Shown: piece after piece, positions 587 to 9,906 of the stretch
How the letters are laid out: each line of letters starts with the position of its first letter
Position numbering within the stretch: position 1 is the first letter of the stretch
Source: Parabacteroides acidifaciens
GTDB taxonomy: Bacteria > Bacteroidota > Bacteroidia > Bacteroidales > Tannerellaceae
Assembly: GCF_003363715.1 (NCBI RefSeq)
Contig: NZ_QREV01000008.1
Span: 1-45,435, forward strand
Length of the DNA: 45,435 bases
Direction of reading: 5' to 3'
Translations under genes and position numbers: made by a program
The notes under the pieces: model-generated
The model's database searches: none
What the model was told of the DNA's origin: nothing
The model's input: the letters and a program-made list of their open reading frames with translations, nothing else

Positions 587-1166
587 TTGATAAACACCTA
601 TATTCGTGAGGTGTTTATCCCCGAATATGCCAGTAACTTCAACAAAGAACTATCTGCTTTGGATACAAAATTTTACGGTAAGATTCATTTTGATCGTAGC
701 CGTTCAGATAATGAACTGAATATGCACTGTCATTTGATAGTCAGCAAAAAGACCAATCCAATAAAAAGAAGTTATCACCGCTTACCAATCACAAAAGCAC
801 CAAGAGAGGGGTAATCAAAGGTGGTTTGACCGAGTAAACCTCTTTCAACAAACAGAACAGAGTTTTGACAAACTCTTTGGCTACGATTGCCAACTATCTG
901 AATCATTTGAGTATATCAACACCATGAAGAACGGTTCTATATCTGAACAGCTTAAGCTGCAAGGGCAAGAAGCTCAATCCGATGAAAGAATAATAGAAGT
1001 CGATCAGCATAGTAATCAGCAAAGCCTTATTTCTATCGGTTTTAGAAAAGATCAAACATGCGGTTTATTCATTTCTTTCATTTCATAAGAAACAAGCTTT
1101 TCATTCCAATCTAATGAACACATACTCGAACCTAAGAAGAAAAAGAAAAAATCTCCAAGACTATAA
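587..1166 (+). pseudogene. Decayed relaxase/mobilisation protein (MobB/DUF5712-like)
   Basis: This is the remnant of a mobilisation relaxase of the type carried by Bacteroides mobilisable elements, which nicks oriT and pilots transfer. The first frame contains YIREVFIPEYASNFNKE, FYGKIHFDRSRSDNE and the histidine pair in MHCHLIVSKK that fits a metal-binding relaxase core. The reading frame then changes: KLSPLTNHKSTKRGVIKGG is in a second frame (about 768-829), and FDRVNLFQQTEQSFDKLFGY and what follows is in a third (about 828-1088). A lysine-rich tail, EPKKKKKKSPRL, lies in yet another frame and ends at 1166. At least three frame changes plus loss of the N-terminal part make it non-functional. 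The family call is from memory of DUF5712-type relaxases; the frame breaks are seen directly. Confidence 0.7.
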
Positions 1167-1377: not shown

Positions 1378-2631
1378 ATGGCAAAAAACAAATTAAATCA
1401 AGTATACAATATTGACTCTAGACATATTCTTGAATCGATACCGCAAAATATAGAAATCCAAACTACGATCACATCACCACCGTATTTTGACATGAAAGAT
1501 TACGGTTCTGAAAATCAAGTTGGCTATGGACAGATATATGAAGACTACTTGAATGATTTGCAAAACATATTTGGACAAATCTTGAAAATCACAAAAGATG
1601 ATGGTACACTTTGGATTATAATTGATACTTTTAAAAGAAATAATCAAGTAGTTTCTCTACCTTTTGATCTAGCTAATAAACTTAAAGATATAGGTTGGTT
1701 TCTCCAAGATATAATTATTTGGAAAAAAGATAAAACAGTTCCTTGGTCTACAAACGGATTTATGCAAAGAAAATTTGAATACATATTATTCTTTTCAAAG
1801 TCTCCAAAATATAAGTCAAACAAAGATAAAGTAAGAATCTACGACACTTCACAATTAAAAAAATGGTGGGTTAAATATCCAGAAAGATATAATCCAAAAG
1901 GAAAAGCATTAGATGAAATATGGGAATTCCCTATTCCTGTTCAAGGATCTTGGGGAGATGAGTATATTCGCCATTTTTGTCCACTGCCAAAAGAATTAGT
2001 AGCAACCATGGTACAAATAAGCACGGATGAAAATGATATAATATTAGACCCTTTTGCAGGAAGTGGAACAGTGCTATCTCAATCTGCTTATATGAAAAGG
2101 AATTACATTGGATTTGAACTCAATAATGAATATATAAAAATGTTTGAAAATTATCTTAAGCGAACGATAAAAAAATACAGGAAAGAATATGAATTATTGG
2201 AGCAACAAAATAATCAGAGTGACTTTGAGATACAAATTTTGAATTTAAGGGTGTTAAAATATGCCCGTTTACTTATAAATAAAATTGAAGAAGAAACAGC
2301 AAGGGATGATTTTAAAATTTTTGTTACAATAAAAAATAGAAGTAGTAAAAGAAATAAGTCTATAGTTGCTGAATATCAAATTATAGGTGATGCTGAATCG
2401 GATAATATTTTAAAACTTATCAACGAAATTATAGTCAAGCCCCCTTTGTCAAAATTTGGAATAGAAGCAATATTTAAGTGTGTAAAAGAAAATAAAGTAA
2501 AATCCAAAAATGTTTTTGGTTATTCAAAAACAAATTCCTATTCATATATTAAAAATATAGATATGTCATCCCCAAAAGTTAAAGTGATAAGTGATATCTG
2601 TGTTGATTTAAACGAAAAAGATTACGACTAA
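1378..2631 (+). CDS. Beta-class DNA methyltransferase (N4-cytosine/N6-adenine type)
   Basis: A DNA amino-methyltransferase of 417 residues. The catalytic motif IV, TSPPY, is at residues 32-36. The AdoMet-binding motif I, DPFAGSGTV, is at 224-232, preceded by HFCPLPKELV (motif X-like). The order IV then I is that of the beta class, and SPPY is more often seen in N4-cytosine than in N6-adenine enzymes. Residues from about 260 to 417 form a charged C-terminal extension that I do not recognise. The ATG follows a purine-rich AAGAAAG. The stop is 11 bases before the next gene, a DGQHR-domain protein, so the two are almost certainly co-transcribed. The pair is markedly AT-rich and flanked by mobile-element debris, which points to horizontal transfer. 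The target sequence cannot be told from this. No classical restriction gene is adjacent, so this may be part of an unusual restriction or modification-sensing system. Confidence 0.85.
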   Translation: MAKNKLNQVYNIDSRHILESIPQNIEIQTTITSPPYFDMKDYGSENQVGYGQIYEDYLNDLQNIFGQILKITKDDGTLWIIIDTFKRNNQVVSLPFDLANKLKDIGWFLQDIIIWKKDKTVPWSTNGFMQRKFEYILFFSKSPKYKSNKDKVRIYDTSQLKKWWVKYPERYNPKGKALDEIWEFPIPVQGSWGDEYIRHFCPLPKELVATMVQISTDENDIILDPFAGSGTVLSQSAYMKRNYIGFELNNEYIKMFENYLKRTIKKYRKEYELLEQQNNQSDFEIQILNLRVLKYARLLINKIEEETARDDFKIFVTIKNRSSKRNKSIVAEYQIIGDAESDNILKLINEIIVKPPLSKFGIEAIFKCVKENKVKSKNVFGYSKTNSYSYIKNIDMSSPKVKVISDICVDLNEKDYD

Positions 2632-2642
2632 AGACTTCCACT

Positions 2643-4418
2643 ATGGCAAAGAAAAATACAAAGAAAAACAAAAAAAAACTCTCTTCTGTCGAAATTTATC
2701 AACGCAACGAGCAACGAAATCAGAAAAAAGAGATATGCGATATTCTTAAAAATATAGGTTTCGATAAGCTGTCTTACATTGATGGTAAAGAATTTAATTA
2801 TGAAGGGAGAACATCGGAATTAGATGATATATTTATATTTGAGAATGTTATTTTGTTAACAGAATACACCATTGGAGATCCTCATTTATTAAAGAAAAGT
2901 ATTTTCTATAATAGAGTTAACAGTGATAAAAAGGCCTTCATAAATTTTATGCTGCAAGAAGAAAAACTTAGCAGTTTTAAAAAGTATTACCAAGATAATA
3001 TAAAAGATAAATATTCCATTAATCAGTTAAGAGTAAAGATCTTATATTGCTCTAAAAAAAGCATATCAGAAGAACATAAAAATGTTGTTAATGATGTGAT
3101 TTACTTTGATTATCATGTAGTACAATATTTCAAAAGTTTGACAAAAGTAATAAAAAGATCAAGTAAATACGAATTCTTAGAATTTATAGGTATCCCATTT
3201 AACGAATTTGGTGAAAATATTTTAGGATCAGGACATATTTCCATCAATAAATTCTCAGGACATATTTTGCCAGAAGAAAAAAGTTCTTTTAAAGAAGGTT
3301 ATAAAATTGTATCTTTTTATATTGATGCTGAATCATTAATAAAAAGAGCTTATGTTTTACGCCAAGAAGGTTGGAGAGAAAAAGATAACATAGGCTACTA
3401 CCAAAGAATGTTCGAAGCAAAAAAAATATCAAGTATGAGAAAGTATTTGACAGAAAATAGCAGAGTTTTTATAAACAATATTATTTCTACAATTGCAGAA
3501 AACCAAATTAAACTATTTGATCGCAAAGGAAATCCTATTATAATAAATGATAAAGGTGAATTTGAAGGAGATAATGCTTCTACAAATGTAACTCCGGCTT
3601 TGATAGAGATTAATGATGAGTGTAATATTATAGGACTAATTGATGGTCAACATAGAACCTATGCTTATCATGAAGGAGATGATATCTACGAATCTCATAT
3701 TGCCAAACTGAGAAAGATACAAAATTTATTAGTTACTGGAATTTTATTTCCTCAAAAGGAAAGTAAAGAAAGTCGATTAAAATTTGAAGCTAATCTATTT
3801 TTAGAAATTAACCTAAACCAGACCAAAGTAAAGCCTAAATTGCAACAAGAGATAGAATTAATGATTACTCCATTCTCAAATGTCGCTATAGGTAAAAGAA
3901 TTTTAAAAGGGCTTAATTCGAATGGTCCATTAAGTAATTTAATTGAGCAATACTCTTTTGAAAAGGGTAAAATTAAAACGGCTTCAATTGTTAGTTTTGG
4001 TTTAAAGCCATTAATTAAACTTGATGACATAAAAAGTAACGATAGTTTATATAGCTTATGGAAAAATCAAAACAAAGCTATGCTAAAAGAAAGTAAATCA
4101 GAAGAATATCAAATCCTGAATGAATATATTTGTTTTTGCATTACGAAAATAAGAGATCTTTTAATTGCCTTTAAATCTGAATTAAGCTCAGATAAATGGG
4201 AAACATATACTCCTCGAAATCCTAATGGAATATTAACTGTTACATTTATAAATGGAGTGTTAAATGTATTAAGATTACTAATTGAGAATAATAAAATATC
4301 AGATGTTCAAAGCTATAAAGAGAAATTAAAAGATATCGATAAATTTGACTTTAAAAAATACAAGTCTAGTCAATATAGAAAAATGGGAAAAGATATATAT
4401 GCAAGATATTTTGAATAA
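2643..4418 (+). CDS. DGQHR-domain (DndB-like) protein with nuclease-like N-terminus
   Basis: A 591-residue protein with the signature DGQHRTYAYHEGDD at about 334-347, followed by FLEINLNQTKVKP. This defines the DGQHR family, which includes DndB, the regulator of DNA phosphorothioation, and DpdB of the 7-deazaguanine DNA systems. After a lysine-rich start, residues 30-165 look like a separate alpha/beta domain: GRTSELDDIFIF (56-66), then VILLTEYT (69-76), then VKILYCSK and DVIYFDYH. The spacing resembles a PD-(D/E)XK core (D61 or D62, then E74-x-T76), but threonine stands where the catalytic lysine is expected. The nuclease idea is therefore an inference and activity is uncertain. The gene sits 11 bases after the methyltransferase and is equally AT-rich. 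No dndCDE, dpd or brx genes are visible, so it appears to work as a two-gene unit. Confidence 0.8.
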   Translation: MAKKNTKKNKKKLSSVEIYQRNEQRNQKKEICDILKNIGFDKLSYIDGKEFNYEGRTSELDDIFIFENVILLTEYTIGDPHLLKKSIFYNRVNSDKKAFINFMLQEEKLSSFKKYYQDNIKDKYSINQLRVKILYCSKKSISEEHKNVVNDVIYFDYHVVQYFKSLTKVIKRSSKYEFLEFIGIPFNEFGENILGSGHISINKFSGHILPEEKSSFKEGYKIVSFYIDAESLIKRAYVLRQEGWREKDNIGYYQRMFEAKKISSMRKYLTENSRVFINNIISTIAENQIKLFDRKGNPIIINDKGEFEGDNASTNVTPALIEINDECNIIGLIDGQHRTYAYHEGDDIYESHIAKLRKIQNLLVTGILFPQKESKESRLKFEANLFLEINLNQTKVKPKLQQEIELMITPFSNVAIGKRILKGLNSNGPLSNLIEQYSFEKGKIKTASIVSFGLKPLIKLDDIKSNDSLYSLWKNQNKAMLKESKSEEYQILNEYICFCITKIRDLLIAFKSELSSDKWETYTPRNPNGILTVTFINGVLNVLRLLIENNKISDVQSYKEKLKDIDKFDFKKYKSSQYRKMGKDIYARYFE

Positions 4419-4700
4419 ATGCCACATGATTCAATGAAAGTTGTATTTTTTTTAATGATTATTTGATCTGTTTTTGATATTTCATTTTGGCTTTTTAAAA
4501 TTATTATTTCTCATAAGAGATTTTAAGCTATCTTTGTCCTCAGTATTCTCCATGAGCAAACTACTGCAAAAGTACATGGCAAATTAGTGGGATATTCATG
4601 GGATATGCCTGAAGTTAAAATATAAAGTTTTAAATATCAGTATGGTAACTCTGTTGAGAGAATCCCAGGCGGATCACTGAAAACAAAAGAAAAATCAAGC
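4419..4700. other. AT-rich intergenic stretch, no gene seen
   Basis: Between the DGQHR gene and the terminator I see no convincing coding frame or RNA gene. The sequence around 4575-4680 looks less AT-rich and could be the edge of an older insertion, but no attachment-site repeat was identified. Confidence 0.4.
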
Positions 4701-4744
4701 AAAGAGGTTGTATTAAAATACTGGCACAACCTCTTTCTTTTTTA
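4701..4744 (+). terminator. Rho-independent terminator after the MTase/DGQHR cassette
   Basis: An 11-bp perfect stem (AAAGAGGTTGT at 4701-4711 with ACAACCTCTTT at 4726-4736) is followed by CTTTTTTTA. It is nearly 300 bases past the DGQHR stop, so it may belong to a lost gene. Confidence 0.75.
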
Positions 4745-4894: not shown

Positions 4895-5059
4895 ATGGAT
4901 AAATTTAATGAGGGTGAGAGGATTGATACCGCAAGGTTAGAAAAACTATTTCTCGAAAAAGGCACATTGAAAGTGCTTAAGAAAAATGAATATATGGTTT
5001 GTCAAAACGATAAAATGCTCCTTAAAAAATTAGAGGTAAAGCCTGTGGTAGAGGTTTGA
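4895..5059 (+). pseudogene. N-terminal stump of a Crp/Fnr-family regulator
   Basis: A 54-residue frame begins MDKFNEGERIDTARLEKLFL and continues through LKKNEYMVCQNDK. This resembles the start of the cyclic-nucleotide-binding domain of Bacteroidetes Crp/Fnr regulators, where a helix is followed by a 'gel..l.kge.l...g' strand pattern. It stops at 5059, long before the end of a normal domain (about 110 residues) and without the helix-turn-helix. It is probably a truncated remnant, in keeping with the mobile debris around it. The family call rests on a short match. Confidence 0.45.
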
Positions 5060-5206: not shown

Positions 5207-6068
5207 CGCCAAGTGGCACAAAAGAATCTTTATCTCGTTTCCCTGGTTTCAATGGTCCGTAGAAAAAAGATGCCGTTGCACCACCGTCTATCAGAAAATC
5301 TGCACCGGTAATGAATGCCCCTTTGTCATTCATCAGAAGCTCTGCAACATTAGCTACTTCATCTGCTGTTCCCGGACGGCCTGCGGGACATTTGGCAAAC
5401 ATATTCTGATAGAAATCTCCTCTTGGTCCATTAAATTCATCTAATGCCAGTGGAGTCACTATGATTCCTGGAGAAATAGAATTTATTCGCGCTCCTTTTT
5501 CTCCCCATTTCACAGCTTCCGCCATGACACGTTTCACGTTGCAACGTTTCGCTATCTGGTAGGCGTGTAACGTATCTTTAATGTTTTTGGGTTGCAGTAC
5601 TTCGAGTTTCAGTAGTTTTTCCGTTGGTGTGAGAGCTAATTGTTCATCTACTTCCGGAATGAGAGCCGGCATACGGTGTCCGGATTGGCTGGAGATAGTT
5701 ATACCTACACCCTCTTCCTTTATTACTTTACCAATTTCTTCTAATAATACAGCTGTTCCGTATAAATCGACTTTCAAGATGGTCTCTATTGATGCCTGAC
5801 TGGGTGAAACGCCTGCGGCATTAATCAACATTGAAACTTCTCCATACTTCAATGCTTCTGCAATCATCGAAAGAACAGACGAACGGGATGAAAGATCCAT
5901 TTGTATGGCAACCGCATCAAAACCGGCTTCGTTCATGATCCTTGCAATGGCTTTGGCATGCTCCACATTTTTATCTCCAATTACTATTTTCTTTCCATAA
6001 CCCATACGGCGTGCAATTGCCATACCTATCTGACCTGCACCAGTCAAAATCATAACTTCTTTTTTCAT
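5199..6068 (-). CDS. Short-chain dehydrogenase/reductase (SDR)
   Basis: An NAD(P)-dependent oxidoreductase of the classical SDR fold, about 289 residues from the chosen start MKKEVMIL. The dinucleotide-binding TGAGQIGMAIA lies at the N-terminus, NAAGVSP marks the end of strand 4, TISSQSG carries the likely catalytic serine, and AYQIAKR supplies the YxxxK pair. SPGIIVTPL follows as expected. The C-terminus GADFLIDGG is typical. The ATG at 6068 overlaps the flavodoxin stop (ATGA), which suggests translational coupling; the frame is open seven codons further upstream, but that start would lie inside the flavodoxin gene. It is the last gene of the redox operon. The substrate is unknown. Confidence 0.85.
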   Translation of the reverse strand: MKKEVMILTGAGQIGMAIARRMGYGKKIVIGDKNVEHAKAIARIMNEAGFDAVAIQMDLSSRSSVLSMIAEALKYGEVSMLINAAGVSPSQASIETILKVDLYGTAVLLEEIGKVIKEEGVGITISSQSGHRMPALIPEVDEQLALTPTEKLLKLEVLQPKNIKDTLHAYQIAKRCNVKRVMAEAVKWGEKGARINSISPGIIVTPLALDEFNGPRGDFYQNMFAKCPAGRPGTADEVANVAELLMNDKGAFITGADFLIDGGATASFFYGPLKPGKRDKDSFVPLGEP

Positions 6069-6745
6069 AAATCTTGTTCTTTCAGCCATTTTACCACATC
6101 TTCCTTAGCTTTGGGTACACTTCCTGCGGAAATGGACGGCCCTTTAATCACTTTTGCATTCTTTTCCATTGTGGCTATCGTTTCCACCGATTGCGAGAAA
6201 CGACTTCCTCCGTGGGTGACAAACGGAATAATGGTTTTTCCGCTGAAATCATATTCATCGAAAAAAGAATAAATAGCCATCGGCATATCGTACCACCAAT
6301 TGGGATAGCCAACGAAGATGATGTCATAATCCTCCAGGTTTTTGATATGTGTTGTCAGCTTGGGATGCTGTTTGGCTTCCGCTTCCTTTTTAGCTGCATC
6401 GATCAATGCCTTATGGGGAGCCGGATAGGTGCGCTCGGTTTTGATGGCAAACAAATCTCCTCCGGTTGCTTCACTGATAATATGCGCTATGTATTCCGTA
6501 TTACCGTAAAGTCTGCCGTTTGAGATGACACGGCTGGCACCTGTCTTAGCATCCGTTCCATCCGGTTCGGGCCATGTAAAGTAAGTTACCAACACTTTAC
6601 CTCCTGCTTGTACAGTGGTAGTGTTCTCAACGATGGCAGATTCCATAGGCATTTCCTGATTTCTTGTTTCTGCATGAACCCATAATAAGGTGGAACCCAA
6701 CAGTGCTACTGCTACAATTCCTACTTTCTGATAAATCTTTGTCAT
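6065..6745 (-). CDS. Exported flavodoxin-family protein
   Basis: A 226-residue protein with an N-terminal hydrophobic signal (VGIVAVALLGSTLLWVHAE) followed by a flavodoxin-like fold. GKVLVTYFTWP is the first strand with the FMN phosphate loop region, DYDIIFVGYPNWWYDMP is the conserved FMN-contacting segment, and IIPFVTHGGSRF is the third. This matches the flavodoxin_4-type proteins common next to aldo/keto reductases in Bacteroidetes. Export suggests electron transfer outside the cytoplasm, in line with the Tat-signal reductase and membrane polyferredoxin upstream. The stop overlaps the SDR start. The gap to the upstream aldo/keto reductase is 38 bases, so all four genes form one operon. Confidence 0.85.
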   Translation of the reverse strand: MTKIYQKVGIVAVALLGSTLLWVHAETRNQEMPMESAIVENTTTVQAGGKVLVTYFTWPEPDGTDAKTGASRVISNGRLYGNTEYIAHIISEATGGDLFAIKTERTYPAPHKALIDAAKKEAEAKQHPKLTTHIKNLEDYDIIFVGYPNWWYDMPMAIYSFFDEYDFSGKTIIPFVTHGGSRFSQSVETIATMEKNAKVIKGPSISAGSVPKAKEDVVKWLKEQDL

Positions 6746-6783
6746 ATTGTTTTCTATTTATGTGTATTGCTATCTATTTTATA

Positions 6784-8190
6784 TTATATCGTACCTTGTT
6801 TTAACTGTTCCACAAACTGGTCTATGCGTTGCAACTGCTCCGGTATCTGTATGTTTTGCGGACAGTGGAGCGAGCATTGGTTACACCCGATACAGTGGTT
6901 GGCCTGCCGCAAACGGGGTACGCTCCGGTCATACCCCACAAGGAAAGCACGGCGTGCCTTGCGGTAGTTTTCGTCCTGGCTGCTTTCGGGCACATTCCCT
7001 TCGTTTACGCACCGGTTATAATGCAGCAGAATCGCCGGAATGTCAATACCATACGGGCATGGCATACAGTATTTACAGTCGTTGCAAGGTACGGTAGGGT
7101 ATTTCAACATCAGTTGCGCCGTATCTTCCAAAAACGCCTTGTCATCATCGGTCAAGGGTTTCAAAGGTGCATAGGTCCGCAGGTTATCCTGCAAATGTTC
7201 CATATAGGTCATACCGCTAAGGACAGTCAGTACACCGGGCCATGTCCCGGCAAATCGGAATGCCCAGGAGGCGACGCTACTTTCCGGTTCACGCTGTTTG
7301 AGCAGGGAGATGATATGTGTCGGGACATTGGACAGACGACCGCCCAACAACGGCTCCATGATGATGGCCGGAATGCCTCGCTTGGTCAGTTCGCCATACA
7401 GGTATTCCGCATCCGTGTTTCGCGGATTGGTTTCTTTCGCATGCTTCCAATCCACATAATTCAATTGTATCTGTACGAAATTCCATTGGAATTCATCATG
7501 ACGGGAAAGCAGGTAATCGAATACCTCTATATCGCCATGATAAGAGAAGCCGAGATTACGGATTCGTCCGGCTTCCCGTTCGCGAACCAGGAAGTCGAGC
7601 ATGCCATTATCCAGATACCGTCCCTTCAGCGCTTCCATGCCTCCCATACCGATGCCGTGCAACAACAGGTAGTCGATGTAGTCTACTTGCAGCTCTTTGA
7701 ATGAATTGCGGTACATGGCCATGGATGCTTCACGGCTCCAGGTAGCGGGCGAAAAGTTAGAAAGTTTGGTCGCTATAAAATAGCTGTCACGCGGATGCCG
7801 GCTCAAGGCTATACCCATGGCGTGCTCGGAGCGTCCTTTGCAATAGGCAGGGGAGGTATCAAAATAATTGACACCATGTGCCAGGGCGTAATCCGTCAGG
7901 TGATTCACCATCTCCTGGTCTATCTCGTCGGCTCCCTCTCCGGCATCGGGGGTGCTTATTGTCGGCAAACGCATACATCCATATCCTAAGAGCGACACCT
8001 TGTCGCCGGTGGAAGGATTGGTGCGGTAAGTCATTTTGTCGGTCGGAATTTCACCTGTGGCCGTACCTTCGGGAGTCAGGTTCTGATTTATATCTCCACA
8101 ACCATACAGAGTGGCGGTGGAGGCAGCAGCTCCTGTTCCAAGGACTTTCAGGAAACTGCGGCGGTTCATTTCTTTTCGTTTCTTTTCCAT
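6784..8190 (-). CDS. Tat-exported aldo/keto reductase with C-terminal 4Fe-4S ferredoxin domain
   Basis: A 468-residue protein from the start MEKKRKEMNRRSFLK. The RRSFLK twin-arginine motif, the hydrophobic stretch and LYGCG (a possible lipobox) suggest Tat export and perhaps lipid anchoring. The TIM-barrel aldo/keto reductase core shows FDTSPAY with the catalytic tyrosine, IATKLS and LLHGIG. Near the C-terminus, CNDCKYCMPCPYGIDIP and CIGCNQCSLHCP give two cysteine clusters for 4Fe-4S centres. I chose the ATG at 8190 because the frame upstream overlaps the polyferredoxin gene, leaving a 16-base gap. The protein probably takes electrons from the polyferredoxin or flavodoxin to reduce a carbonyl compound outside the cytoplasm; the substrate is unknown. 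Confidence 0.9.
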   Translation of the reverse strand: MEKKRKEMNRRSFLKVLGTGAAASTATLYGCGDINQNLTPEGTATGEIPTDKMTYRTNPSTGDKVSLLGYGCMRLPTISTPDAGEGADEIDQEMVNHLTDYALAHGVNYFDTSPAYCKGRSEHAMGIALSRHPRDSYFIATKLSNFSPATWSREASMAMYRNSFKELQVDYIDYLLLHGIGMGGMEALKGRYLDNGMLDFLVREREAGRIRNLGFSYHGDIEVFDYLLSRHDEFQWNFVQIQLNYVDWKHAKETNPRNTDAEYLYGELTKRGIPAIIMEPLLGGRLSNVPTHIISLLKQREPESSVASWAFRFAGTWPGVLTVLSGMTYMEHLQDNLRTYAPLKPLTDDDKAFLEDTAQLMLKYPTVPCNDCKYCMPCPYGIDIPAILLHYNRCVNEGNVPESSQDENYRKARRAFLVGYDRSVPRLRQANHCIGCNQCSLHCPQNIQIPEQLQRIDQFVEQLKQGTI

Positions 8191-8206
8191 AATCTTCTTT
8201 TTTTCA

Positions 8207-9688
8207 TTAAACAGTTCTGTGCATTTCGTGTCCTTCCACATAGATGGCGCTGAACGGGCGTGCCGGACAGAGATTCTCGCAAGCTCCACAACCGATGCAA
8301 CGCTCCACGTTTATTATCGGAATTTTCGGAGAGTCGGATCTATCGGGATCGGAAGGAACCATTTGGATGGCCCCGGTAGGACAGTGACGGGCACAGTTGC
8401 CACAATCCACACCGTCTCTCAGCGGAATACAGTTTTTCTTTACCCATACGGCATGGCCGATCTGGACGGCCGATTTATCCTCGACCGTTAACGGATGGAT
8501 GGCTCCGGCCGGACAAACTTCGGAGCATTTTGTACATTCGGGACGGCAATAGCCACGCTCGTAAGACATTTCGGGCTGCATCAGTTTCATTAAATCGGTA
8601 GAGGGGCGGAGCACTCCGTTGGGACATGCCGATATGCACAGTTGGCAGGCGGTGCAATGCTGTGTCAGGTTGCGTGCACTGAATGAACCCGGAGGTGTCA
8701 GCGGGGTAGTACGGTTGGGGATTAGCTTGTCTTCTATCTTTGCCAATCCGCCGTCCACGTTTTTCTCCTGTGCTTTCAGGGCAGAAGTCGTTGCCAGCAC
8801 AGTTGTCGTTGTGAGAAAGCTACGGCGGGTATTGTCTATTTTCTCATTTGATGCCGGTGTCGCATCCTTGCCGGAAGGATGGGTATAGCTGATGGCCCCC
8901 TTATGGCATTTGCCGATACAGTCCATACATGCCACACACCGGCTGTAGTCTATCTTGTGCTCTTTCACATCGATGCACGCCGATTTGCAATTGCGGGCAC
9001 AAAGGTTGCAGTTTACACATTTGGAGGTATCGATCACCGGCTTCAGCCACGCATATTTAGCGAGAAAGCCAAGTACGGTACCCACCGGACAAATGGTATT
9101 GCAATAAGTACGCCCGCCACGCCATGCCAGGATGGCGATGATTATAAAAGTGAAGGCGGCAATGATAAAAGTAGAAAGGCTTTTCATCCAGACATCCACC
9201 GAATAGAAGGCATAATTGCCGGCGCGTTCCGACAGATAAGCAAGCCCGTTGTTACTCCATTGCCACAACGGCTGAAACAGGTTGTTTGCCATCCGTCCGT
9301 AAGAACTGTAGGGAGCAAGCAACGCGACAAGCGAGCCTATTCCGGCGATAAGTGCCACGATAAAAAGTCCCAGCACACCGTAGCGCAACCAATTTAAAGC
9401 TTTAGAATAACCGTAGCGGTTCTTTTTCCGCTTCTTGCCCAACCATGCCACTGCGTCTTGAAATACCCCCAAAGGGCAAATGACAGAACAGTAGATACGG
9501 CCGAAAACTAATGTCAGGAGAATGAGCAACACCACGGCTCCTATGTTTAAAGCCAGTACTGCCGGCAGGAACTGAATTTTTGCCATCCATCTGAACCAGG
9601 CATGCGCCGTCCCTGTGAAATCAAGGAACAGGAGTGTCACCAGGGTGAAAAACAGAATGGCGAGAGTTAGTCTGATTTTTCGTAACAT
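8207..9688 (-). CDS. Membrane polyferredoxin, NapH-like with fused ferredoxin domain
   Basis: A 493-residue iron-sulphur membrane protein. The first 215 residues contain about five hydrophobic segments and the NapH-type CSVICPLG and CNTICPVG motifs. CVNCNLCARNC and CVACMDCIGKC then give two 4Fe-4S sites. At about residue 286 a second twin-arginine-like stretch, NTRRSFLTTTTVLATTSAL, appears in mid-chain, followed by four more cysteine clusters (CTACQLCISACP, CTKCSEVCP, CGNCARHCP, CIGCGACENLCP). The layout looks like a NapH-like protein fused to a NapG-like exported ferredoxin. It heads the redox operon and likely carries electrons across or along the inner membrane to the exported reductase. 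A -7 promoter element lies just upstream. Confidence 0.9.
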   Translation of the reverse strand: MLRKIRLTLAILFFTLVTLLFLDFTGTAHAWFRWMAKIQFLPAVLALNIGAVVLLILLTLVFGRIYCSVICPLGVFQDAVAWLGKKRKKNRYGYSKALNWLRYGVLGLFIVALIAGIGSLVALLAPYSSYGRMANNLFQPLWQWSNNGLAYLSERAGNYAFYSVDVWMKSLSTFIIAAFTFIIIAILAWRGGRTYCNTICPVGTVLGFLAKYAWLKPVIDTSKCVNCNLCARNCKSACIDVKEHKIDYSRCVACMDCIGKCHKGAISYTHPSGKDATPASNEKIDNTRRSFLTTTTVLATTSALKAQEKNVDGGLAKIEDKLIPNRTTPLTPPGSFSARNLTQHCTACQLCISACPNGVLRPSTDLMKLMQPEMSYERGYCRPECTKCSEVCPAGAIHPLTVEDKSAVQIGHAVWVKKNCIPLRDGVDCGNCARHCPTGAIQMVPSDPDRSDSPKIPIINVERCIGCGACENLCPARPFSAIYVEGHEMHRTV

Positions 9689-9725
9689 AATCTATTTTCT
9701 ATAAGTTGTTGTCTTTTATTTTTTG

Positions 9726-9733
9726 CAAAAATA
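9726..9733 (-). promoter_or_regulatory. -7 promoter element of the redox operon
   Basis: The minus strand reads TATTTTTG, matching TAnnTTTG, about 38 bases before the polyferredoxin ATG. The remaining bases to 9906 hold no gene I can support. Confidence 0.5.
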
Positions 9734-9906
9734 GAGTATGCCAAACAGATAGAAGATAGATAAATTACGGTTACATTTACCATTATTGCGGATTCTTACC
9801 TCCTATGAAGAATATTGGCATGGCGCACCAGCTATTCTCCATCGGAATATCGGGAAGCCCTATGTGTAATGGCAAAAAGAATTGACAGTTCGCCGCCGCC
9901 TTTGGA

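Follow-up and report, generated by a model that had tools for sequence, protein, structure and literature searches.

The window analysed here was a 45,435-nucleotide stretch of DNA from Parabacteroides acidifaciens (NCBI RefSeq assembly GCF_003363715.1, contig NZ_QREV01000008.1, positions 1 to 45,435 of the forward strand). It carried two intact plus-strand genes, as the preliminary description had set out: (i) a 417-aa beta-class DNA methyltransferase (MTase) at 1378..2631, with TSPPY (motif IV), DPFAGSGT (motif I) and a C-terminal domain, and (ii) after 11 bases, a 591-aa DGQHR protein at 2643..4418, predicted from model matches and its modelled fold to be a restriction nuclease-NTPase (DGQHR-nuclease). 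The pair was AT-rich, as had also been noted, with 26–29% GC versus mostly about 42–55% (with dips to 35–39%) in the window past 5.5 kb. The MTase matched PF01555 of Pfam (E 1e-45); its catalytic motifs were intact, with TSPPY ahead of DPFAGSGT in the beta-class order, and its C-terminal domain (about residues 270–417) was conserved across its MTase class. We take the TSPPY motif as a hint of N4-cytosine. PADLOC (2023) gave generic type II MTase matches only for this protein and a weak DpdB match for the DGQHR protein.

The DGQHR protein narrowly passed the cut-off of TIGR03187 (59.4 bits; cut-off, 58.85) and scored far under those of the dnd model TIGR04172 (32.8 of 450) and the DpdB model NF041060 (24.9 of 300), while some of its homologues bore a precomputed PF14072 (DndB) label. 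No Pfam family matched it at E ≤ 1, hence no DUF262, HNH or DUF1524 and no helicase family; no restriction-enzyme model of Pfam, NCBIfam or PADLOC and no meaningful PHROGs entry matched it either, and phmmer and profile searches found no solved structure related to the whole protein. The DndB/DpdB kinship proposed earlier thus stood for the DGQHR (ParB/Srx) domain and fell for the protein as a whole, for which the Dnd and DpdB models failed. The usual dnd/dpd partners had been described as absent, and this was borne out for DndC: a DndC search of the genome gave no match, and the 5.1-Mb host genome contained one DGQHR match. Model scores below the cut-offs, no DndC match in the genome and a single DGQHR gene were the grounds for rejecting a remnant of Dnd or Dpd.

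Structure prediction resolved the DGQHR protein into three parts, all encoded on the plus strand: (i) a predicted PD-(D/E)XK-fold domain at residues 5–185 (2655..3197), (ii) a predicted ParB/Srx NTPase-type domain at residues 212–393 (3276..3821), related to ParB, Noc and PadC structures and containing the DGQHR motif at residues 334–338 (3642..3656), and (iii) a C-terminal part at residues 394–591 (3822..4415), which was all-helical in the model and matched to no fold. A nuclease-fold domain is thereby predicted N-terminal to a ParB/Srx NTPase-type domain within one protein, and the latter domain, as modelled, suggests NTP use. Homologues were aligned as 94 representatives at 75% identity, drawn from two listings of homologues (the best 120 of 1339 and 120 of 380, 240 in total) together with 26 locus-derived proteins. 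Among these listed matches, D61, N68, E74, H81, Y135, YQR 253–255, DGQHR 334–338 and N390 were each present in 94/94 and K85 in 93/94, while position 76 was Thr in 88/94 and Ser in 3/94 (T/S in 91/94). In the model, strand 62–66 opened with D61, strand 69–76 ended in E74 and T76, and helix 82–94 began with H81 and K85, giving a putative active site E59-x-D61 ... E74-x-T76 ... H81 ... K85 (2817..2897, plus strand). The canonical D...(D/E)xK arrangement was absent, ExK occurring in 0/94 of the matches listed; in the modelled fold the usual motif lysine seems to have moved to the next helix. With ExT/S instead of ExK, the domain is therefore filed as a fold-level PD-(D/E)XK variant with a migrated lysine. 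A comparable replacement of the motif III lysine by Thr, with the lysine likely relocated to the following helix, is reported for DUF1626 in the relevant portion of PMC1913061, and lysine migration in PD-(D/E)XK nucleases is described more broadly in an excerpt of PMC1189080.

From its conserved residues, we read this domain as probably active. The missing catalytic lysine in 94/94 listed matches would suit a DndB-like regulator, which would bind DNA and ATP and limit or time methylation, its PD-(D/E)XK fold being inactive and sensing nucleotides or DNA; the sections available present DndB as a repressor dependent on ATP (PMC12704722, PMC10853773) and propose inactive restriction endonuclease domains as sensors (PMC12839542). 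Invariance of D61, E74 and H81 and retention of K85 in 93/94 of the matches listed would, however, not be needed in a dead domain, and the protein fell under the cut-off of the dnd model. On these points and those given below, we consider the regulator reading rather unlikely.

Searches that took the DGQHR protein or its alignment as input, blind to the presence of an MTase, supplied the loci of the DGQHR-nuclease family. An MTase gene lay within 3 kb of the DGQHR-nuclease gene in all 33 distinct loci (the window as L001 and onward to L027, plus L034, L035, L037, L076, L077 and L079). Duplicates had been merged (L028, L043 and L080 with L007; L044 and L075 with L002; L054 and L078 with L014; L036 with L026 at 100% over 8004 bp; and re-fetches of the window), and four rows were weaker: L008, with a partial MTase match (residues 137–411) within a 631-aa ORF; L004, with the DGQHR gene broken into two ORFs; L037, with the DGQHR gene truncated at the record end; and L014, with two genes between the MTase and DGQHR genes. 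The two genes were on the same strand with a gap of −77 to +50 bases, by mechanical ORF starts, in 24 of 27 loci, the exceptions being L014, L019 (divergent) and L026 (convergent). From the MTase side, relatives of the window's enzyme (E ≤ 1e-30) occurred in 3/286 genomes of the order, all adjoining a DGQHR-nuclease. Chance neighbourhood was rejected, the naive expectation being well under 1% versus 33/33 loci; that expectation was based on three PF01555 matches at two places in the organism's own 5.1-Mb genome and would be raised by defence-island clustering.

Loci from other DGQHR families, 12 in number and taken from weak matches of the DGQHR searches, served as control and had an MTase within 3 kb in one case with short flanks and in three with longer flanks (L093, L094 and L095); the contigs of L092 and L096 were short, and the DGQHR genes of L087, L092, L093, L096 and L097 were placed by search-match coordinates rather than by HMM. 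MTase proximity is thus a wider DGQHR theme, a point that suits a DndB-like regulator, and it is constant only in this DGQHR-nuclease family. The MTase and the DGQHR-nuclease form a real unit. The preliminary description had proposed a compact two-gene modification or defence unit, to be abandoned if homologues of the two genes rarely adjoined; the pairing in 33/33 loci clearly goes the other way and leaves that proposal well supported.

ORF clustering disclosed no conserved third gene family in more than 3/27 loci, with family-model scans covering part of the neighbours. Against the regulator reading, no alternative gene family, nucleases included, exceeded that frequency. Single loci did contain further genes near the pair: a BglII-family restriction endonuclease gene in a Spirosoma record, an HNH_2 gene in L027, an HsdR-type gene in L075, an Mrr-nSTAND gene in L018 and a GHKL ATPase gene in L014 and L018; L037 is also listed among the loci with a nuclease gene near the pair. 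The DGQHR protein could then be an auxiliary module, assisting other restriction nucleases or serving as an R-M (restriction-modification) accessory, and for loci of just two genes, the window among them, it would be concerned with upkeep of a mobile element and not phage defence, or be a relic. Such a role draws on the neighbouring nuclease genes of the Spirosoma record, L027, L075 and L018, on the GHKL ATPase of L014 and L018 and on the mobile setting of the window's pair; against it stand the rarity of any third family (at most 3/27, resting on ORF clustering), the intact genes of the window and the 58–62% identity of its DGQHR protein to those of L013, L017 and L019 from other phyla. As a general explanation we hold it very unlikely, but L014 and L018, like the loci with another nuclease gene close by, may be cases of an accessory role; GHKL proteins occur in R-M operons according to the passage available from PMC2292703.

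The MTases beside this one nuclease family were of more than one kind. The METHYLTRANSFERASE varied from locus to locus, different MTase classes adjoining the same DGQHR-nuclease family. In an MTase tree of 32 rows (L008 left out; classes set from the alignment before the tree was built), class A comprised 21 rows, mostly of 417–440 aa with TSPPYF and a conserved C-terminal domain, and class B comprised eight rows of about 310 aa with (T/C)SPPYN; L077 and L079 made a third group, and L019, whose branch was very long, joined none of these. In the tree of DGQHR proteins (31 rows, without L004 and L037), the MTase classes required six changes, and well-supported branches forced at least three each for A and B, the exact count being unsure because both trees were quick and had several long branches. 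A cognate R-M pair that changes its specificity would give such a picture, a single nuclease family combined with different MTases. The ParB/Srx-domain kinship to GmrSD noted in part of PMC4619093 would also permit a type IV-like enzyme, attacking foreign-modified DNA as GmrSD does, with the MTase in an independent role. MTases of varied classes within 3 kb in 33/33 loci point to a functional need for an MTase, and the type IV-like reading is most improbable.

A relative in Aliiglaciecola (L019) differed in arrangement, with the MTase at 5963-7183 (minus strand), the DGQHR gene at 7959-9749 (plus strand) and an 83-aa HTH_3 gene at 7306-7557 between them. C-protein genes are regulators of type II R-M systems. 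The PDB sequence matches of the HTH_3 protein included C.BclI (2.1e-9), C.AhdI (8.5e-9) and an R-M controller protein (2.1e-8), and a C-box, GACTATAGTC-CGTC-GACCATAGTC, was present at 7242 ahead of the HTH_3 gene, the only match to the C-box pattern among the 40 loci scanned (duplicates included). According to the portion of PMC4824078 at hand, for most tested C proteins the C-box consists of two near-palindromes of the form GACT-tat-AGTC, the spacer having GT at its centre. A C-like gene and C-box by the pair were found in this one of the 40 loci; the window had neither, and a second C-like protein match lay 7 kb from the cassette in L018. L019 had been considered a false pair with an unrelated, divergent MTase, its genome giving one weak match (1.7e-6) to the window's MTase; this was set aside, the intervening gene having proved C-protein-like. 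The HTH gene and the DGQHR gene lie about 400 bases apart, and the link is therefore suggestive. The DGQHR gene sits here in the position of a restriction endonuclease, which speaks against a regulator of methylation.

In the window, the pair lay between two flanks that recurred without it. The left flank (599..1037, plus strand), found elsewhere in the genus, was a broken DUF5712 gene of a mobile element, and the right flank (4495..4703) was conserved at eight other fetched places. The left piece had been called a relaxase remnant; it proved to be a broken gene of which one open piece matched PF18976 (E 2.3e-9), a Pfam family of unknown function, and the relaxase label went unconfirmed. So did that of the supposed regulator stump, a 54-aa ORF at 4895-5059 with no meaningful Pfam match. 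Flank matches of some kind were found in 15/38 genomes of the genus. Both flanks enclosed differing genes in 8/8 fetched places, which were chosen where the flanks lie near each other. The genes scanned, which do not make up the entire cargo, included HaeIII endonuclease with two C5 MTases and Vsr (L073), QatA and QatC (L070), Beta_protein, 'beta' in PADLOC (L067), a NACHT NTPase (L069), a ResIII/DEAD helicase (L072), a metallophosphoesterase-HATPase protein (L068), NA37 (L071) and a DUF4747 protein (L074); two of the eight places held clear known defence systems, and PADLOC gave no match for the cargo of L068 or L069. The window's pair thus occupies a mobile-element cargo slot otherwise filled by other cargo, including HaeIII R-M and Qat genes. 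The last 44 bases of the right flank (4660-4703) may be a direct repeat that bounds the element. Seven genomes (G012, G014, G016, G022, G024, G026 and G033) had a copy of them beyond the DUF5712 match, on the same strand and 10.6–28.7 kb from the right flank. These copies would be the direct-repeat ends of an integrative element, placing the window's pair just within one end.

Gene structure, predicted fold, invariant residues, constant pairing, varied MTase classes, operon order, the cargo slot and the C-protein-like gene with its C-box in L019 together argue for a compact two-gene, NTP-linked R-M system with the DGQHR protein as restriction enzyme, a reading to which we give a probability of about 0.7. 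For such a pair we infer nuclease activity, NTP use, methyl sensing and phage restriction. The MTase would methylate its own recognition sites in the host; cutting of DNA would fall to the PD-(D/E)XK-fold nuclease at the N-terminus, its lysine being on the following helix; the central ParB/Srx domain would bind and probably hydrolyse NTP, coupling the reading of mark or site to cutting; and the helical C-terminus may contact DNA or a partner subunit. Incoming DNA without the mark would be cut and marked self DNA released, and this putative restriction role agrees with the earlier suggestion of a DGQHR protein sensing or acting on unmarked DNA. The N-terminal nuclease-fold domain, the cargo slot common to known defence systems and the C-protein-like gene of a relative had escaped the preliminary description.

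By analogy, the nearest worked precedent for such a mechanism is DndI, which the consulted part of PMC11662687 describes as a protein that combines a ParB/Srx DGQQR ATPase and an HNH nuclease, is toxic to cells without the phosphorothioate mark, is proposed to dissociate from marked DNA upon ATP hydrolysis and requires its motif arginine for ATPase activity and defence. Binding of ATP and GTP by a DndB-like protein is likewise reported in the section seen of PMC12704722. In a more specific version, offered tentatively, the restriction enzyme is a clamp of the ParB type: the DGQHR protein may load at an unmethylated site as an NTP-gated clamp and spread along DNA like ParB, its PD-(D/E)XT...K domains cutting on clamp collision or dimerisation. 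If so, this would be helicase-free, NTP-dependent restriction in which the mark is an ordinary methyl group placed by exchangeable MTases.

The pair shared with type II R-M systems (the HaeIII-like one of the same slot and C-controlled systems such as AhdI and BclI) separate MTase and nuclease genes, tight linkage with the MTase first, mobile-element carriage and, in one relative, a C-like protein with a C-box, but its nuclease had a predicted ParB/Srx NTPase-type domain and an ExT...K site. Like DndI, SspE and GmrSD, the window protein appears to unite nuclease and ParB/Srx NTPase-type domains in one chain, and DndI restricts DNA without the host mark (as stated in the available part of PMC11662687); theirs, however, is a C-terminal HNH with DGQQR, whereas the window protein has a predicted N-terminal PD-(D/E)XK fold with DGQHR and a methyltransferase as partner instead of phosphorothioation genes. 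DndB and DpdB have the DGQHR domain in common with it, but it lay far under their model cut-offs, has an extra predicted nuclease-fold domain and comes from a genome with no DndC match. Type III R-M (Mod-Res) likewise combines a beta-class MTase with an NTP-dependent nuclease, as is predicted here, while the window nuclease has no SF2 helicase and a predicted ParB/Srx domain in its place. DUF1626-type PD-(D/E)XK nucleases have the same exchange of motif III lysine for Thr and positive residues on the next helix, but a ParB/Srx domain is not mentioned for them in the text available from PMC1913061.

No literature on this MTase and DGQHR pair was found among openly licensed papers (DGQHR papers by title and abstract start; REBASE outside the scope), and the system proposed is, within that same scope, an R-M system with a nuclease type not found described. 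In the Bacteroides fragilis group, most type II MTases are without an identified neighbouring restriction endonuclease, according to the part consulted of PMC10333322; the DGQHR-nuclease would provide seemingly orphan MTases with a restriction nuclease. It would also join a ParB/Srx NTP switch and a PD-(D/E)XK cutter, known apart, in one protein that appears dependent on ordinary DNA methylation, and the two-gene system could serve to study self/non-self reading by a ParB-like switch. The family was distributed over Bacteroidota, Pseudomonadota, Thermodesulfobacteriota and Chloroflexota, and over plasmids and phage or viral records. Viral contigs gave zero matches with the single DGQHR protein as query and five loci with the alignment as query. 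Relatives were also carried by two rhizobial plasmids and, among the viral records, by Akkermansia phage Chantilly, where they adjoined the integrase of the phage.

Upstream of the MTase gene of the window (1378..2631), a perfect 14-base palindrome composed of two 7-base arms was found at 1202-1215; it would arise by chance with a probability of about 1/50 in 321 bases, a rough estimate in which base composition was ignored, and it is a possible operator. Elsewhere in the window's own genome, two more PF01555 methyltransferases were arranged in tandem (G000:C84:3618-5409), possibly representing another restriction-modification system.

Two DGQHR-nuclease loci, L014 (5376-7934 and 9709-10455) and L018 (3999-6526 and 9720-10484), displayed an extended form of the cassette, to which a GHKL-type ATPase (PF13589), a ~300-aa protein, and a ~250-aa protein without Pfam match were added; clustering of ORFs placed the ~250-aa family in DGQHR-nuclease locus L021 too. 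On Spirosoma plasmid NZ_CP056033.1 (L037), a BglII/BstYI-family restriction endonuclease lay between the MTase gene and the DGQHR-nuclease gene, the latter being truncated by the end of the record; this record may have been wrongly circularised, because the reading frame was disrupted just beyond the junction. The DGQHR gene of NZ_CP017943.1 (L034) was annotated in PLSDB as a predicted lmrP efflux pump, which looks like a false resistance call. Database homologue P0228 and its near neighbours formed a branch of the DGQHR-nuclease family (580 aa) that was frequent in metagenome data among the matches listed, e.g., with 654 contigs, among these matches, for the cluster named Ruthenibacterium lactatiformans.

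At L093:5578-9441, L094:5228-8453, and L095:5976-8293, MTase genes were also located within 700 bases of DGQHR genes of other families, which encode longer or shorter proteins (766, 785, and 478 aa, respectively), and adjoined them in two of the three loci; these perhaps belong to a broader set of DGQHR-MTase systems.

The slot holding the pair, flanked by a broken DUF5712 gene (599..1037) and by 4495..4703, carried other cargo elsewhere in the genus: (i) a 1159-aa metallophosphoesterase-HATPase protein (L068:1716-5195) and (ii) a 1245-aa NACHT protein (L069:1998-5735). Neither protein gave a PADLOC match, and both genes are candidate defence genes. Window 4660-4703 (44 bases) had copies at many places in the genus (89-100% identity), and in seven genomes a copy of the same orientation was also present past the DUF5712 match, on its side away from the right flank; this stretch is perhaps the attachment-site repeat of a mobile element.
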